From Bacteroidaceae bacterium (lineage in GTDB: Bacteria; Bacteroidota; Bacteroidia; Bacteroidales; Bacteroidaceae): DNA of 44,154 bases. The notes below the pieces were generated by a model that saw nothing but the letters and a program-made list of their open reading frames with translations, searched no databases and was not told the DNA's origin. A program made the position numbers and the translations under genes. Below, in pieces: positions 2,923-43,870 of this stretch (position 1 is the first letter of the stretch; each line of letters opens with the position of its first letter). The DNA is taken from positions 1 through 44,154 of the forward strand of contig JAFXVS010000063.1 in the NCBI GenBank assembly GCA_017534815.1. The letters run 5' to 3'.

Positions 2923-4524
2923 ATGAGGCTTGTACCTGAACTTTTAAGACTTAACCAAATGGTATGGGGAAACAACATCGTTGACTTCCTGACCAAACTC
3001 ACCAAACGCCCCAAGGGGACTGTGCTTGCACGCAAGTTCAAAGAGGTGACACAATCAGATAGACACATGACGGTCATGTGGTATTGCCAAGAGGATCAGA
3101 TTGTCCTCGTCGGTTTGGAACACCATCAACAGACGAAAGAATATTTGGCCGATGAGGAGCCCTTTGCGGGCACGCCGCCGATGTATTTCTCTGAGTCTGG
3201 TCACTACTACAGTCCTGTCCATCAGTTGAAGAAACTGAGGAATGAGGTTTCAAAAACGCTTCAAGAGCAGAGGCTTCTTACGAATGCCATCTGGATTGTG
3301 TATGTCACCAATAATCGTCTGATTAACATCGATGCTATGAAGGATGACGTGTGGCTGCCGGATCGGGTGATTGTCTTTGACCGTCAGGAGGATTTGTCTC
3401 CTAAATTCTGTCCGGAAAGTGCTTATCAGGTGAAAGTTGGACTTGAGGCTTTCCGCTATGCTAAAGAACATACGACATGGGACGGTACGGAAGATCCCGA
3501 TGAGACGTATGATGATGTGGAGGAGGAAGATGAGCTTGATGATATCATCGACACCAAATATCCCTTTGGAAAACCATCATCCTCTGACGATGAGGCTCCC
3601 CGTCGCCGCAAGGCATCGACCTATGTGCCTAAGTTGGAGGACGGGATGAGGGCTGAGGTCTATCCTTGTTTGGAGAATCCTGAGGCGATGTTTGAGGACA
3701 TCATCGGGTGTCAGGAAATCAGAGAGCAGATTCGTCAACTGACGACCTTGCACAGCTATAACCTCAGGATGCGTGAGTTCAATCCCAAAGCCCAACCACA
3801 TGAGATGTCGCTGCATGCCATCTTTCATGGTTCGCCTGGTACGGGCAAGACGACGCTCTGCAGACTCTACGCTTCCTTGCTCTTTCAGGCTGGGGCACTG
3901 ACACATGGACACGTCGTGGTGGCATCGAGAAGCACTTTTCTCGGCACCAACTTCGGCGATGAGGAGAAAGCGGTTCACGCTGTACTGAAAGCCGCTAAGG
4001 GTGGGGTGCTTATGATTGACGAAGCCTATCTGCTGAATCCGCCTCACCCTAACGATCCAGGCAAGCATGTCCTTCAGTTGATGATGCCGATGTTGGCTGA
4101 TGAGAAGGAAAGGGACATCGCCATCGTGCTTTGCGGATACACTGAGCCGATGGAGAAGCTGCTCAGCCTGAACGAAGGATTGGCTTCACGTTTTCCCAAC
4201 CGATTCAAATTCCCAGACTTCACCGTTCCGCAGTTGCTCGACATCAGCAAATTGCGCATCAAGAAGTTCAACTACCATTTCACGCCCAAGGCCTGGAAGT
4301 TGTACAAGGAAATGGTGACGCAGGTGTATGACCATCGTGACAAGAAGAAATGGGGCAATGCCAGAGAGATGGGGCAGCTCTTGGACAAGATATACATCCA
4401 TCATGCGAAGCGTTGCATGTCCACATCTGACCCCAAGAAGATGTTTGCCATCACGGTGGCAGATATCAAGCCTGTGGAAGGCTCCCTCACGTTCAGCCCT
4501 CAACACCATATTGGCTTCCGATAG
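2923..4524 (+). CDS. CbbX/SpoVK-type AAA+ ATPase
   Basis: This is a 533-residue protein starting at the ATG at 2923; an upstream in-frame TTG at 2869 lies in the structured leader and is less likely. Residues 1 to about 180 form a domain I do not recognise. Next is a very acidic linker (about 186-212, many Asp and Glu), then an AAA+ module. The module shows Walker A GSPGTGKTT near 302, Walker B VLMIDEA near 362, a sensor-1-like LCGYTEP segment, and Arg-finger-like SRFPNRF near 421. CbbX/SpoVK relatives form ring-shaped ATPases that remodel protein partners, such as the Rubisco activase CbbX; here the substrate is unknown. The neighbour upstream encodes an HExxH protein, so a chaperone-plus-protease pairing is possible but unproven. 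The protein is presumably cytosolic, as no export signal is seen. Confidence 0.8.
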   Translation: MRLVPELLRLNQMVWGNNIVDFLTKLTKRPKGTVLARKFKEVTQSDRHMTVMWYCQEDQIVLVGLEHHQQTKEYLADEEPFAGTPPMYFSESGHYYSPVHQLKKLRNEVSKTLQEQRLLTNAIWIVYVTNNRLINIDAMKDDVWLPDRVIVFDRQEDLSPKFCPESAYQVKVGLEAFRYAKEHTTWDGTEDPDETYDDVEEEDELDDIIDTKYPFGKPSSSDDEAPRRRKASTYVPKLEDGMRAEVYPCLENPEAMFEDIIGCQEIREQIRQLTTLHSYNLRMREFNPKAQPHEMSLHAIFHGSPGTGKTTLCRLYASLLFQAGALTHGHVVVASRSTFLGTNFGDEEKAVHAVLKAAKGGVLMIDEAYLLNPPHPNDPGKHVLQLMMPMLADEKERDIAIVLCGYTEPMEKLLSLNEGLASRFPNRFKFPDFTVPQLLDISKLRIKKFNYHFTPKAWKLYKEMVTQVYDHRDKKKWGNAREMGQLLDKIYIHHAKRCMSTSDPKKMFAITVADIKPVEGSLTFSPQHHIGFR

Positions 4525-5427: not shown

Positions 5428-7194
5428 ATGAGTACCTATTTTGCAAGAATCGTGATGGTCGGCATGCTGCTGATGTGTGCCGCCAAGGGCTTCTGCCAAG
5501 AGGAACAGGCAGATGCAGTTCCCTCGCCCATTGACTCGCTGCAGTCTGTGAATGATTCGATTTTTGAGTCGCTGAACCACCAGATTCAGGAACTGAAACT
5601 GCATGGAATCATGATGCAGGAGCAGTTGGAACGGACGGGTAAGAGTGCGAAGGAGGATTCGTTGCGGCAGGCTGAACGCAAGGCACGTGTGGATTCGCTG
5701 AGGAGCGTGACACCTGGTGCCCCGCTGATTATCGACAATGACACATTGCTGGTCATCTATGCCCGTAAAGGTGGTATGTTGCCAGAGGCACGTGTGAAGT
5801 CCGTGAAGAGCAAAATCTATGAGGCGGGCAAGCGACTGACGATGTTTGTCGATTCCATCTATGTGTTCGACAGCGAGGTGTCGTCGGATGTGATGGTGGG
5901 CGAGGAAGTCATCCTGAGTGTGACGGATTTGGATGCCTTGTGGATGGGTATGGAACGTATGGAACTGGCTGAGACCTATCGTGATGCCATCAGCAAGAAG
6001 GTGAACGAATTGCACGAGACCTACGGCTTGCAGCAGAAGTTGCAGAGTCTGGGTTGGGTGGCACTTATCATCGCTTTGCAGATTCTGCTTATCTGGTTCA
6101 TCGTGTGGCTCTTCCGTCGCTGGAAATACAGCGTTACTCGCAGGTTGCTGCTTCGTATCAAGTCGGTGGTCATCAAGAACTACCCCTTGCTTGATACGCA
6201 TCGTCTGGGCATCGCCATCCTTTTCCTCTTCAATTTGGTACGCCTGTTACTCATTCTCTTGGTGCTCCTTGTGGGACTCGGCTTCATGTTCTCCTTCTTC
6301 CCAGAAACGAAGACCCTCACCTATACGGCTTTGGGCTTCATCTGGAATCCCCTCAGCGAAATTCTCAAGTCGGTGGTTGCCTATCTGCCCAAGCTCTTCA
6401 AGATTATCGTCATCATCATCTGTTTCCACTATCTGCTGAAACTGGTTCGCTACTTCGCCAACGAGGTGGCCAGCGGACGATTGAAGATCAATGGTTTTTA
6501 TGCTGATTGGGCGATGCCTACCCACGCTATCTTGCGTGTGTTGCTCTATTCGTTCATGTTGGTGATGATTTGGCCGTTGCTGCCCAATTCGGACTCTGAG
6601 ATTTTCCAAGGTGTGTCAGTCTTCATAGGTGTAGTGGTCTCGTTGGGTTCCACATCTGTAGTGGGTAATGTGATGTCGGGTTTGGTGATGACTTACATGC
6701 GTCCCTTCCGCATAGGTGATTTTATCCGCTTTGGCGACGTGGAGGGTGAGGTCATCGAGAAGAGTATGTTGGTGACACGTATCCGCACTCGCAAGAATGA
6801 CATCGTGACCATTCCCAACTCGAACATGATGAGTTCACAGACCTCGAACTTCACCTTCTCTGCCCAGCGTTATGGCATCATCGTACATACCAAAATCACC
6901 ATCGGCTATGATGAGTCCTGGAAGAAGTTGGAGTCGCTCCTTGTGCAGGCAGCAGAAAATACTGATGGCATCAAGCGGCACCCCAAACCCTTTGTCCGCA
7001 TCACGGCACTCGACGATTTCTATGTGGAGTACGAAATCAATGGCTATACAGATCGTGCCAAAACCCTCTCTGCCGTCTATTCTGCCCTTCATCAGCAGAT
7101 TCTCGACACGCTGCATGGTGCAGGTGTAGAGATCATGTCACCTCACATCGAGGCACGACGCGATAATCTGCCTTTGCAGATTCCAAAGGAATAA
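5428..7194 (+). CDS. MscS-family mechanosensitive channel
   Basis: This 588-residue inner-membrane protein starts at the ATG at 5428. A signal peptide (residues 1 to about 23, cut near GFC-QEE) leads into a periplasmic region of about 180 residues that looks helical. Hydrophobic segments follow near residues 208, 261, 321 and 367. The conserved MscS pore helix and beta domain begin near 392, with the Gly/Ser-rich SLGSTSVVGN helix, MRPFRIGDFI, and VTIPNS. Channels of this family open under membrane tension and release solutes during hypo-osmotic shock. The large periplasmic domain makes it an extended type like MscK or YbdG relatives rather than small MscS. It is divergent from the PHP gene. 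Its stop codon is followed directly by a heptamer array. The family call is secure; gating behaviour is not readable from sequence. Confidence 0.88.
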   Translation: MSTYFARIVMVGMLLMCAAKGFCQEEQADAVPSPIDSLQSVNDSIFESLNHQIQELKLHGIMMQEQLERTGKSAKEDSLRQAERKARVDSLRSVTPGAPLIIDNDTLLVIYARKGGMLPEARVKSVKSKIYEAGKRLTMFVDSIYVFDSEVSSDVMVGEEVILSVTDLDALWMGMERMELAETYRDAISKKVNELHETYGLQQKLQSLGWVALIIALQILLIWFIVWLFRRWKYSVTRRLLLRIKSVVIKNYPLLDTHRLGIAILFLFNLVRLLLILLVLLVGLGFMFSFFPETKTLTYTALGFIWNPLSEILKSVVAYLPKLFKIIVIIICFHYLLKLVRYFANEVASGRLKINGFYADWAMPTHAILRVLLYSFMLVMIWPLLPNSDSEIFQGVSVFIGVVVSLGSTSVVGNVMSGLVMTYMRPFRIGDFIRFGDVEGEVIEKSMLVTRIRTRKNDIVTIPNSNMMSSQTSNFTFSAQRYGIIVHTKITIGYDESWKKLESLLVQAAENTDGIKRHPKPFVRITALDDFYVEYEINGYTDRAKTLSAVYSALHQQILDTLHGAGVEIMSPHIEARRDNLPLQIPKE

Positions 7195-7215
7195 AGTTTA
7201 GAGTATAGAGTTTAG
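7195..7215. repeat. Heptamer array AGTTTAG x3
   Basis: Units AGTTTAG, AGTATAG and AGTTTAG start on the base after the MscS stop codon. The array lies between two convergent genes (MscS and sprA) and belongs to the same unit family as 18499-18526 and 25693-25748. Confidence 0.7.
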
Positions 7216-7227
7216 AGATAACGTTTA

Positions 7228-18498: not shown

Positions 18499-18526
18499 CT
18501 AAACTCTAAACCCTAAACTCTAAACT
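18499..18526. repeat. Heptamer array CTAAACY x4
   Basis: Units CTAAACT, CTAAACC, CTAAACT and CTAAACT lie head to tail. They resemble telomere-type heptamers but are internal here. Confidence 0.75.
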
Positions 18527-18566
18527 TTACAAGACAATAATTAATAACAAATAAAACAAAACAATT

Positions 18567-19068: not shown

Positions 19069-19599
19069 GTCCAAAGCCGTCTGCTGGAGGGTGAAGGTGC
19101 CTACCTTGCCTCCCTCCCGCTCCGACCGGATATAAGACAATTTTTTTCAGCAAGGCACCCCAAACGAGCCTTAAAAGACATAAGAAAATGGTACTTGGAG
19201 CCGTTTTTCTGGACGATTTTGATTCAGTTTTTTGTCGATTTTGAGCGGATGCGACCAAGAAAAAGAAGGGGGCTCAATGCTTATTTATGATAGCCAAATG
19301 TCTTTTTTCTGATAGACTTGACGTCGTAATTTGTGCCGTCAAATTTGTATTCGTCTGATTGTCAGCTATTTTTAATAAAGTGTAAAAGTGTGTCAACCAA
19401 TCCAGTACTAAGACAATGTGATGTGCTCGAAAAAAATCAAAAAAACACAAATTATTTTTTGCCAAAACATTCGTAAACCGCAATGTGGATGTCGTAAATT
19501 TGCGCTGCATTTGAGATGCATCGCGAGTGAAGGCTGCGGCTCAGCATAGCTCGAGCGAGCTCGGCTCTGCGTTCACCTTGCAACTTCAGTTACAGCGTC

Positions 19600-19652
19600 A
19601 ATCGATGGAGCAGCGAGAGCCATCAGGCTAGCATGAATGGCCGAGTCGTGAC
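19600..19652 (+). repeat. 53-base palindromic element, intergenic copy
   Basis: This stretch matches 46 of 53 bases of 20391-20443 (read on the opposite strand), which lies inside recG. Six of the seven differences fall in the central 10 bases, and both copies keep a central palindrome (GCTAGC here, AAAC/GTTT there) within a GCCAT/ATGGC stem. Confidence 0.75.
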
Positions 19653-19754
19653 AAAGAAAGACGCAGTCAACTCCAAGGAGAAAACTTGCAGCCCTTAATG
19701 GTCACAAAATTTTCCCTTAGGAGACACAAAAAACTAACTAACACATCATCCATT

Positions 19755-21986
19755 TTAACTGATTGCGCCCCAGTTGATGTTGCTCTTGCGGAGTTCGCGG
19801 AGGTGGCGCCAGAGGATGTCGTTCTGGGGGTTGTGTTCTTCGGGGTCGGAGGTAATGACGGATTGGGCGGTGTCGCGGGCAAGGTTGAGGATTTGACCAT
19901 CACGGGCGAGATTGGCGATTTTGAGGTCGAACGCCATGCCGGATTGCTGGGTGCCTTCGAGGTCGCCAGGACCACGCAGTTTGAGGTCTTCCTCGGCTAT
20001 CTCGAAACCGTCAGTGGTATCGACCATCACCTGAATGCGCTTACGAGTGGTCTCACCTATCTCGAACTTGGTGACGAGAACGCAGTAGCTCTGGTCGGCA
20101 CCACGCCCTACCCTGCCTCGCAACTGATGAAGTTGGCTGAGTCCGAAGCGCTCGGCATTCTCGATGATCATGACGGAGGCATTGGGCACGTTCACACCCA
20201 CCTCGATGACGGTGGTGGAGACGAGGATGTGGGTCTCGTGGTTGGCGAACCGCTGCATCTCAGCATCCTTGTCAGCTGATTTCATTTTGCCATGCACCTT
20301 GCCGACTTTGTGGTTGGGAAAGGCTCGTTGAATCTCCTCAAAACCTGCTTCCAAGTCTTTCAAGTCCATCTTTTGGCTCCGCCTTCCTCCGTCACGACTC
20401 GGCCATTCAAACCTGTTTGATGGCTCTCGCTGCTCCGTCGATTCGGTCTCCTGAATGAGGGGATAAACGATGTAGATTTGACGTCCGAGGTCGAGTTCAC
20501 GATTCATCAGTTCGTAGATGCGCTGACGATGGGCATCGAACATGTGGACGGTGCGGATGGGTTTACGACCTGGGGGCAGTTCGTCGATGACGGACACGTC
20601 GAGGTCGCCATAGAGGGTCATCGCCAAAGTGCGTGGGATGGGGGTTGCCGTCATCACAAGGACATGAGGCGGCACTGCGTTCTTCATCCAGAGTTTGGCT
20701 CGTTGCGCCACTCCAAAACGGTGCTGCTCGTCGATGACTACAAGTCCTAACTTGTTGAACATCACATTGTCTTCTATCACGGCATGGGTGCCCACAAGGA
20801 TGTGGATATCGCCCCTCACAAGTCCTTCGAGCACAGCGGTCCGCTTCTTGCCCTTCACGGTGCCTGTGAGCAGTTCGACACGCACAGGGAGGTCGCCCAA
20901 GAAGTCACGCAGGGTGGCGAGGTGCTGCTCTGCAAGGATTTCCGTAGGAGCCATGATGCAGGCCTGACAGCCGTTGTCGATGGCAATGAGTGCCACCATG
21001 AGTGCCACGAGGGTCTTGCCGCTGCCCACATCGCCCTGAAGGAGTCGGTTCATCTGCCGACCTGACTTCATGTCGGCTCGTATTTCACGGATGACCCGCT
21101 TCTGTGCCTCTGTAAGTTGGAAGGGCAGGTGGTTGTAGAAGAAGCCGTTGAAGTGGTCGCCAATGGTATTGAAGATGAGTCCTTTGTAGCGCAGTTGACG
21201 GTCTTTCACGTAGCGCAGGATGTTGAGCTGGACGTAGAAGAGTTCCTCGAACTTCAGTCGCAACTGGGCATGTCGCAGGACTTCGGGCGAACTGGGATAG
21301 TGGATGTTGCGCACAGCCTCATCGTAGGACATGAGATGGTGCTGCTGCACGATGTAGGGGGGAAGCGTCTCTGCCAAGGGCTCCTTGAGCAACTTGAACA
21401 TGTTGGCAGTCAATTTCGCTATCGCTGCAGAATTGAGTCCGCTCCGCTTCATCTTCTCAGAAGTGTTGTAGGAAGGTTTGAAGTTGAGAGATGAGAGGTT
21501 AGAGTTGAGAGTCGAGAGTTGAGCATCGTCTTCAAAGAGGTTGCCTGTGGTACGTGCCTGTTCCCTCAGTTCCTCAGGAGCGTTCTCAACTTCTGGGTGG
21601 GCAATCTGGATGTGTCCATTGAAGACGGTGGGTTTGCCAAAGACGAGGTAGGGTTTGCGGCAGTCGTAGTTCTTGGCGGCATACTTGATACCCTGAAACC
21701 ACACGAGGTCGATGCTGCCCGTCCCATCGGAGAAATGGGCGATGAGACGCTTGGCACGTCCCTCGCCCACTGTATCGAAAGAGAAGATCTGTCCGCAGAG
21801 CTGCACGTATGGCATGCTTCCATCTATCTCACGTATCTGATAGATGCGGCTGCGGTCCACATACTTGTAAGGATAATATCCCAGCAAGTCGCCCACGGTC
21901 TTGATGCCGAGTTCGTTGGCGAACAGGAGGGCTCGATTAGGCCCCACTCCCTGCAGATACTTGATATCCTGACTCAGTATGTTCAA
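19755..21986 (-). CDS. recG: ATP-dependent DNA helicase RecG with repeat insertions
   Basis: RecG remodels stalled replication forks and Holliday junctions. The 743-residue protein has an N-terminal OB/wedge domain, Walker A GDVGSGKT, the DEQHRFG box, MTATPIPRT, and the C-terminal helicase motifs (VGVNVPNA and QLRGRVGRG). The family is usually about 700 residues in Bacteroidetes. Two in-frame additions explain the excess: a 14-residue Ser/Leu/Asn tract written by six 7-base DNA repeats (21482-21523), and about 23 residues at 20370-20450 that include a 53-base repeat element. Both fall at loop or linker positions, so activity may be kept. The frame's start is TTG at 21986; ATGs just upstream are out of frame and meet a TGA overlapping the TTG. 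The gene lies 12 bases after the GH30 gene and is probably co-transcribed with it. Confidence 0.93.
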   Translation of the reverse strand: MNILSQDIKYLQGVGPNRALLFANELGIKTVGDLLGYYPYKYVDRSRIYQIREIDGSMPYVQLCGQIFSFDTVGEGRAKRLIAHFSDGTGSIDLVWFQGIKYAAKNYDCRKPYLVFGKPTVFNGHIQIAHPEVENAPEELREQARTTGNLFEDDAQLSTLNSNLSSLNFKPSYNTSEKMKRSGLNSAAIAKLTANMFKLLKEPLAETLPPYIVQQHHLMSYDEAVRNIHYPSSPEVLRHAQLRLKFEELFYVQLNILRYVKDRQLRYKGLIFNTIGDHFNGFFYNHLPFQLTEAQKRVIREIRADMKSGRQMNRLLQGDVGSGKTLVALMVALIAIDNGCQACIMAPTEILAEQHLATLRDFLGDLPVRVELLTGTVKGKKRTAVLEGLVRGDIHILVGTHAVIEDNVMFNKLGLVVIDEQHRFGVAQRAKLWMKNAVPPHVLVMTATPIPRTLAMTLYGDLDVSVIDELPPGRKPIRTVHMFDAHRQRIYELMNRELDLGRQIYIVYPLIQETESTEQREPSNRFEWPSRDGGRRSQKMDLKDLEAGFEEIQRAFPNHKVGKVHGKMKSADKDAEMQRFANHETHILVSTTVIEVGVNVPNASVMIIENAERFGLSQLHQLRGRVGRGADQSYCVLVTKFEIGETTRKRIQVMVDTTDGFEIAEEDLKLRGPGDLEGTQQSGMAFDLKIANLARDGQILNLARDTAQSVITSDPEEHNPQNDILWRHLRELRKSNINWGAIS
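20391..20443 (-). repeat. 53-base palindromic element inside recG
   Basis: In the recG frame this element codes for the stretch from about TEST- through -PSRD. It sits in a surface loop of the second helicase lobe between YPLIQE and MDLKDLE. Its partner copy is at 19600-19652. Confidence 0.75.
21482..21523 (-). repeat. Six heptamers inside recG
   Basis: Six 7-base units on the coding strand (CTCAACT, CTCGACT, CTCAACT, CTAACCT, CTCATCT, CTCAACT) total 42 bases, or 14 codons, so the frame is kept. They resemble the intergenic heptamer arrays elsewhere in the window. Confidence 0.75.
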
Positions 21987-25685: not shown

Positions 25686-25692
25686 ATTTTTG

Positions 25693-25748
25693 GATTGAGA
25701 GTTTAAAGTTTAGAGTTTAGGGTTGAGAGCTTAAGGGTTAGGGCTTAG
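25693..25748. repeat. Eight degenerate heptamers between the DHH and GH97 genes
   Basis: Units GATTGAG, AGTTTAA, AGTTTAG, AGTTTAG, GGTTGAG, AGCTTAA, GGGTTAG and GGCTTAG follow one another without gaps. The stop codon of the DHH gene (25738-25740) and its last codons lie inside this array. Confidence 0.75.
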
Positions 25749-42255: not shown

Positions 42256-42475
42256 TTGTCACGCTGACAAAACTCATTTTGGTTCCAGCGAAGACTTTGT
42301 CACGCTGACAAACTCAATTTTGGCTCCAGCGGAGACTTTGTCACGCTGACAAACTCAATTTTGGTTCCAGCGGAGACTTTGTCACGCTGACAAACTCAAT
42401 TTTGGTTCCAGCGGAGACTTTGTCACGCTGACAAAACTCATTTTGGCTCCAGCGGAGACTTTGTCACGCTGACAA
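42256..42475. repeat. 41-base tandem array with palindrome TTGTCACGCTGACAA
   Basis: The 15-base palindrome occurs at 42256, 42297, 42338, 42379, 42420 and 42461, exactly 41 bases apart, with near-identical sequence between (ends in CAGCGGAGACT). Five full units and a last palindrome are present. The period is close to four helical turns and is not a multiple of three, so the array is not coding. Confidence 0.85.
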
Positions 42476-42652
42476 AAGCAGCGAAAAATTTCGCCAACAG
42501 ACAAAATCATTGTCTGGTAAACGCATTTCTGATTTCTTTCTTCATTCGTTCTTTTTTCCTTTCTTTTTTAATTTGTACCTAAAAACATGATGCCCGGTGT
42601 GTGCCTTTCAGTCCATTTGCCCAATGGTTCACATCCTTCGTCATTTCGGCTG

Positions 42653-43102: not shown

Positions 43103-43231
43103 CTCTAAGGAAGCAACTGGCACGTGGAGCGTGGCAGAAGAGATGGATGAGTTATCAAACGCACCCAACCAACCACTGACTGTTTCCGGAACACTCTTTG
43201 CACAACAATATACATCCTTCAGGCCGGAGCA
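43103..43231. repeat. 129-base block, copy 1
   Basis: Same sequence as 43871-43999 with a single base difference, 768 bases apart (256 codons, frame kept). Confidence 0.85.
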
Positions 43232-43870
43232 ATCCTGAAAAGCATAGTCTCTTATTGATGTCACACTGTTAGGGATAGTCACCGATGTCAGGCCGGAGCA
43301 ACGAGAGAAAGCCCCGTATCCTATTTCTGTCACGCTATTGCCGATTGTCACCGATGTCAGGCTGGAGCATATATAGAAAGCAAAGTTTCTGATTGATGTC
43401 ACGCTGTTGGGGATAGTCACCGATGTCAGGCCGGAGCAACGAGAGAAAGCCCCGTATCTTATTTCTGTCACGCTGTTGGGGATAGTCACCGATGTCAAGC
43501 CGGAGCAGGCTGCGAAAGTCCCTTCTCCTATTGATGTTACGCTGTTGGGGATTGTCACCGAAGTCAGGCCGGAGCAGCCAGAGAAAGCCCTGTTTCCTAA
43601 TGATGTCACGCTGTTGGGGATAGTCACCGATGTCAGGCGGTAGCAGCCATAGAAAGCATCGTCTCCTATTTCTGTCACGCTGTAGGCCACATCATTTTCT
43701 GTTACAGTCTCGGGAATCGTCACACTGCCTGTGTAGTTGGTGTCGCCAGAGGTTACAGTAGCCTCCATTGTATAGGGATTTAGAAGGTAAAAGACACCAT
43801 CAATTGTTACAGAATGCTCAATAGCCACAATTTTACGGAAATCCTTCCATGGTGCTGTCGCCTTATAAGC

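Follow-up and report, generated by a model that had tools for sequence, protein, structure and literature searches.

How did a short palindromic sequence come to lie in frame within a conserved helicase gene, and is it a dispersed element or merely a variable loop of the protein? The question is raised by recG of a Bacteroidaceae bacterium (assembly GCA_017534815.1, contig JAFXVS010000063.1), which occupies the minus strand at 19755-21986 of the window, i.e. the whole stretch of 44,154 nucleotides that was analysed. The open reading frame (ORF) scores 859.7 bits against the NCBIfam model NF008165, ATP-dependent DNA helicase RecG, the cut-off of which is 711. Short palindromic repeats that often insert in frame are best known from Rickettsia, according to the excerpted text of PMC10969869, and the Rickettsia palindromic elements (RPEs) are given in the excerpt of PMC2229807 as 105-146 bp long with a 12-bp terminal inverted repeat. 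REPs, by the part of PMC3733652 consulted, are 20-40 bp long and carry a terminal GTAG or CGTC tag. We show here that the recG insert belongs to a dispersed repeat family of the Prevotellaceae and near relatives, that members reside in frame and mainly on the sense strand in conserved genes, that exact empty sites exist in relatives, and that the fold of the element covaries strongly. A description of this family was not found in the titles and abstract starts of the open-licence papers listed by literature searches.

The original prediction was of a 53-base repeat, in recG and again at 19600-19652. Both copies are present there, with 46 of 53 bases identical, but the 53 bases are only the 5' part of a unit of about 71 nt. 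The in-gene copy (20373-20443, minus strand) is an AA...AA unit of 71 nt, net 69 nt, that scores 91.3 bits with a covariance model of the family. The second copy (19600-19670, plus strand) is intergenic, lies downstream of recG in the opposite orientation, and was recovered by BLAST at 82% identity (E 1e-13 against the 2.3 Mb of its own genome) and by the model at 86.2 bits; the two full units, an inverted pair, agree at 58 of 71 positions. Beside copy 2, a weak match (19538-19576, minus strand; 19.1 bits, E 0.27 for the whole genome) covers the apical part only; it is possibly a remnant or a member of another class, and is not counted as a firm family member. At the protein level, the prediction of extra RecG residues was borne out: the insert is a clean 23-residue block of exactly 69 nt, STEQREPSNRFEWPSRDGGRRSQ, added between ETE and KMDLKDLE. 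Residues 520-543 of the query are unaligned to the solved chain 9wm0_A, the flanks meeting at chain positions 501/503, in what we take to be a loop of the second helicase lobe. Most likely the protein simply tolerates this loop, which would have no function in itself. The window also holds a second dispersed short repeat, made of heptamers like TTGAGAG/TTTAGAG, in recG itself (21479-21523) and at 7192-7217, 18500-18529 and 25690-25733, as well as tandem arrays at 42256-42517 and 43219-43770 with spacings of 41 and 69 nt.

An alignment of RecG across the genus had been named beforehand as the check on whether the insert is confined to some strains, and it is. A RecG match was obtained in 43 of 45 genomes, 42 of which gave informative rows at the insert site; in the 43rd (L079, G041) sequence was absent there, and the row was left out. 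The G041 match is split into residues 1-364 and 536-743, in separate ORFs. Only three of the 42 rows carry the insert (G000, the genome of the window, together with G010 and G035), and 39 are free of it. The insert is a dispersed element, as predicted, and other copies lie in frame in genes of relatives. In the RecG tree, the sole tree used and one read without its support values, the sister of G000 is G038, that of G010 is G012, and that of G035 is the pair G021 and G040; these four neighbours are without the insert. A pheT tree was discarded for an implausible grouping of G016, G035 and G040. Precise loss, repeated insertion or recombination could each account for such patchy occupation; the flank identities around the recG insert were indecisive as to local recombination.

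Empty sites could be compared base by base in recG, pheT, truA and an AIR-synthase-type gene (AIRS), in five comparisons, each with a net length of 69 nt. For pheT, G015 is occupied and G016 is empty, the proteins being 99% identical; for truA, the same applies to G032 (occupied) and G022 (empty), again with 99% identity. The AIRS site is occupied in G032 and G029, the two copies having two family-rare letters in common, and the copy is absent in G022 and G026, neighbours of G032 and G029 in the RecG tree. In some relatives, and in the genome of the window (L288), CTCAAC-type repeats lie in the truA loop. The empty pheT site reads GGTGA|GACC; the left A is thus part of the target, which leaves room at this gene for a duplication of 1-2 nt at most, and none beyond 1-2 nt was found at the empty sites of the four genes. 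The left flank, read at 141 of 145 junctions, was G (0.50), C (0.34), A (0.12) or T (0.04), followed by A (0.99). The element inserts after [G/C]A, with no target duplication of 3 nt or more.

As to recurrence elsewhere in its own genome, which is about 75% complete, the element was indeed found, mostly in altered form. BLAST gave only the two window copies as good matches, and the covariance model gave ten copies at E < 0.01, mostly diverged. Seven of the eight copies outside the window pair lie in no spanning ORF of more than 87 aa, and one (L254) is located right at the start of a 221-aa ORF; the recG copy is therefore the only one clearly genic in this genome, and the in-gene series comes from relatives. 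A BLAST search with the 86-nt in-gene stretch (E up to 0.01) matched 25 of the 45 genus genomes, its own included. Of 399 genomes sampled from the family, 191, belonging to 17 of 30 genera, contained a model match at E up to 1e-6; copy numbers in this sample are lower bounds because 12 candidates were scored per genome. An exact core pattern occurred in at least 120 stretches of public genomes, and the model, run on 80 loci listed from that search, recognized 104 copies (E up to 0.1) in 77 of the 80. Among the matches listed, these 77 loci belong by record title to Bacteroidota (76) and one uncultured bacterium, and ruminant gut sites are mentioned in many of the titles. A copy (L128) is carried by Xylanibacter ruminicola Ga6B6, which is a cultured isolate from the rumen. 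Core-pattern matches outside Bacteroidota (L140, L160 and L195) were unsupported by the model and were taken as chance. Units are mostly 69-80 nt net, the longest being 85, and tandem units that abut, or nearly so, occur. Copies with another core, such as GATTAAG(C/T)GAG..., have the same layout (L249, L252-L254, L157:3688-3766, L146:3579-3647 and L382:2777-2849) and are present in the genome of the window too.

Recent spread is suggested by units that are identical or nearly so: G149 has five identical ones and G004 has three with at most two differences between them (0-2), the wider flanks differing in both genomes. G273 has four identical units. Those of G149 each lie in similar simple repeats and those of G273 at least partly within a larger common repeat, so that neither set says much for the unit having moved by itself.

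The residence of the element in genes was assessed over distinct loci. Grouping by BLAST on sequences that contained the element lumped unrelated loci together, so the flanks were used for clustering instead; 164 copies were entered, 159 were kept (at least 64 nt), and 145 distinct loci resulted. A locus was classed as long-ORF if its longest spanning ORF was 200 aa or more in length and extended 20 aa or more beyond the element in both directions. By this definition 41 loci were long-ORF, 34 with the element in sense and seven in antisense, and 75 had no spanning ORF of 130 aa; the 29 intermediate loci were left out of the frame test (21 of them are 0 mod 3, and several, e.g. AIRS, are genic by other evidence). 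The net length was a multiple of three in 31 of 34 sense loci, five of seven antisense loci and 36 of the 75 others, an excess of sense over others with a Fisher p of 1.3e-5. The sense exceptions are L019, L204 and one of the two L202 copies; at L204 the element precedes the matched domain and may lie before the true start. A single copy common to four genomes (L019, L023, L100 and L358) has a net length of 73, not a multiple of three, and its ORF stays open; the gene that contains it resembles that of a mobilisation relaxase by a motif, although L019 is without a Pfam match.

In a Pfam scan of the sense ORFs, from which L354 was left out, six of 34 were without a match at 1e-5 (L019, L191, L153, L196, L184 and L156). 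The residues encoded by the element are enclosed by a single Pfam match in PheT (L007), TruA (L032), a DUF6273 protein (L082), a zinc-ribbon protein (L173) and a GNAT protein (L154), and with two copies each in a glycosyltransferase (L202) and an RND transporter (L133); in the remaining matched loci, the element is near a domain end or between domains. Four of the seven antisense loci are without Pfam matches; L155 and L138 have some, and those of L171 fall on its sense ORF. Stop codons fail to explain the sense bias, because antisense frames are open as often as sense frames (279 vs 240 of 435). The bias may instead be explained by hydropathy: the sense frames are hydrophilic (mean GRAVY -1.53, -0.94 and -0.30), and the antisense frames range from 0.02 to 0.14.

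The fold was evaluated in two alignments, A1 with 46 copies and A2 with 101 distinct rows fitted to the model, four copies of A2 also being in A1. Copies of the first set were collected for their likeness to the window copy and those of the second for the exact core, so conservation of the core is overstated; the stems lie mostly outside the letters fixed in the core-pattern search. In A1, 76.6% of the cells pair under the structure, as opposed to 66.2% when shuffled and at most 42.0% when slid, and column pairs 4-64, 7-61, 69-79, 26-47, 33-38 and 3-65 were prominent in mutual information. In A2 the figures are 82.9%, 66.2% and at most 49.3%, and two-sided changes number 380 cells against 105 in shuffles. 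The fold is a rod consisting of a basal helix (P1), an inner helix and a variable apical hairpin, followed by a 3' mini-hairpin (P3). In the in-gene copy (all on the minus strand), P1 is formed by 20436-20441 as the 5' strand, which includes a G.A, A.G tandem, and by 20386-20391 as the 3' strand, both supported by pair counts and covariation; the apical hairpin is at 20402-20424 (folding and pair counts), and P3 at 20375-20383, with two covarying pairs and 98.9% of cells paired in each of the two alignments. Tandem G.A steps occur at three places, in 39, 33 and 44 of the 46 A1 rows, and that of P1 is swapped for Watson-Crick pairs in many A2 copies. The apical hairpin is the variable palindrome of the original prediction, which held that it is kept in both window copies and seems to be maintained as a hairpin. 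It is part of a larger conserved fold, and covariation over the family supports the hairpin. In copy 2 the palindrome is imperfect, an apical pair and a basal step being scored by the model as lost, and the 53 bases, when folded by themselves, give no evidence of a hairpin (z = -0.84 and -0.79).

Of the explanations that compete for these observations, an ordinary length-variable RecG loop unrelated to the repeat can be given virtually no credence. Such variation does exist, in that four of the 39 insert-free rows (G013, G020, G027 and G023; L049, L053, L054 and L055) have other, unrelated extra residues at the same loop, but the nucleotide sequence and fold of the insert recur in many unrelated places and its empty site is exact; the dispersed copies refute this reading. 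A structured RNA element that functions in transcripts (in processing, stability or protein binding), spread secondarily and is tolerated in genes has more to offer, and yet we consider it unlikely. Its mainly sense orientation within genes would suit such a role, though hydropathy accounts for that as well. By RNA folding, seven of eight chosen copies gave z values of -1.98 to -3.05 (the eighth, -0.81), but the 71-nt window units fold weakly (-1.62 and -0.80), and with DNA parameters seven strands ranged from -0.11 to -3.46. Pair counts likewise point both ways. The six core pairs favor G.U (Watson-Crick 673, G.T 134, A.C 3, other 13), column pair 14-54 being G.U in 127 of 140 cells, whereas the ten variable pairs, with duplicates dropped, do not favor it as an RNA constraint should, G.T being barely above A.C (Watson-Crick 1251, G.T 32, A.C 24, other 59); three less well aligned apical pairs gave Watson-Crick 315, G.T 28, A.C 17 and other 54. 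Relatives dispense with the element at four genes, and Rfam 15 gave no match in 10 loci at E up to 0.1 and, in 14 loci at E up to 1, three matches, none on the element. DNA is weakly favored as the recognized form.

A folded strand, a target that lies to the left of the insertion, a 3' end that adjoins a small hairpin and the lack of target duplications of 3 nt or longer would all fit a REP or IS200/IS605-type derivative moved by a Y1 (TnpA/RAYT) transposase. IS608 transposes as a single strand, and the fold, target and 3'-end layout of the element resemble it. This derivation is nevertheless quite unlikely. Y1 transposase genes were matched in 10 of 45 genus genomes without tracking copy number, and Y1_Tnp was unmatched in the other 35, among them the carriers G035, G029, G036, G043, G026 and G010; the gene is present in seven of 26 element-rich and two of 13 element-free genomes, many of the genomes being incomplete. 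IS91-type Y2 transposase was matched in none of the 45, the control genomes being silent as well. Like REPs, the element is a short imperfect palindrome dispersed over the genome, but its ends read AA-(C/T).. and ..(C/T)CAA, and the terminal GTAG/CGTC is missing; where CGTC does occur in some copies, it is internal only and on the other strand. Nor do the ends form one inverted repeat, the last stretch on the 3' side being folded into a mini-hairpin of its own. ERIC and Correia (107-bp form) sequences, in the partial descriptions used, have terminal inverted repeats and target duplications, in contrast to the element, for which duplications of 3 nt or longer are not seen; the limit of 1-2 nt at the four empty-site genes likewise sets it apart from a MITE of a DDE transposon. 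The MITEs of Porphyromonas gingivalis are also small repeats in Bacteroidota, a likeness drawn from the description in part of PMC4596501 only.

The comparison with RPEs made in the original prediction stands for behavior and fails for length. Both are short structured repeats, intergenic as well as in frame in conserved genes where they add a peptide (PMC2229807, PMC3733652 and PMC10969869, each in the portion consulted). Judged by the RPE description only, the element differs in its length of mostly 69-80 nt rather than 105-146 bp, its tandem G.A motifs, its 3' mini-hairpin and its phylum.

Copies also occur on possible carriers. The exact core was found in 34 viral-contig stretches, in which the model recognized 47 copies (E up to 1e-5), although some of these contigs may be mis-called. 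On the phage-like contig L400, which carries phage-type genes (DNA methyltransferases, HNH endonuclease and polymerase clamp), a copy lies in frame within a match to the SAM-synthetase N-terminal domain (3962-4426, minus strand). A possible mis-call is L408, which has an insertion in common with L106 and with L357, a locus in a genome of 5.6 Mb. The L106 unit is also present, without any difference, in a plasmid record of Phocaeicola massiliensis (OY726012.1). The window copy was unmatched in the plasmid and phage record collections.

Taken together, the element is probably best read as non-autonomous and mobile, RPE-like in behavior and yet a separate family. An enzyme supplied in trans would move it by recognizing the folded single strand, a rod of short helices with tandem G.A pairs between them and a mini-hairpin adjoining the right end. 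Insertion into a gene would be tolerated if a length divisible by three is combined with a sense frame that yields a short hydrophilic loop, and selection would purge the other events. No mobilizing gene was found for the element, and the patchy recG and AIRS sites can also stem from between-species recombination; both points count against this reading. A bolder version is a tentative possibility, namely a new mobile class in which a novel enzyme would recognize a folded single DNA strand, the rod of Watson-Crick steps and tandem sheared G.A pairs, and in which the element would insert into genes and be lost from them with precision, a loop of 23-25 residues thereby coming and going in essential proteins, with phages and conjugative elements carrying the element between species.

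Because copies lie in pheT, truA, recG and other core genes, the element matters for the annotation of these genomes. With exact empty sites in close relatives and a family member in a cultured isolate, its movement, its mainly one-sided orientation in genes and a possible effect of the added loop on the protein would become testable.
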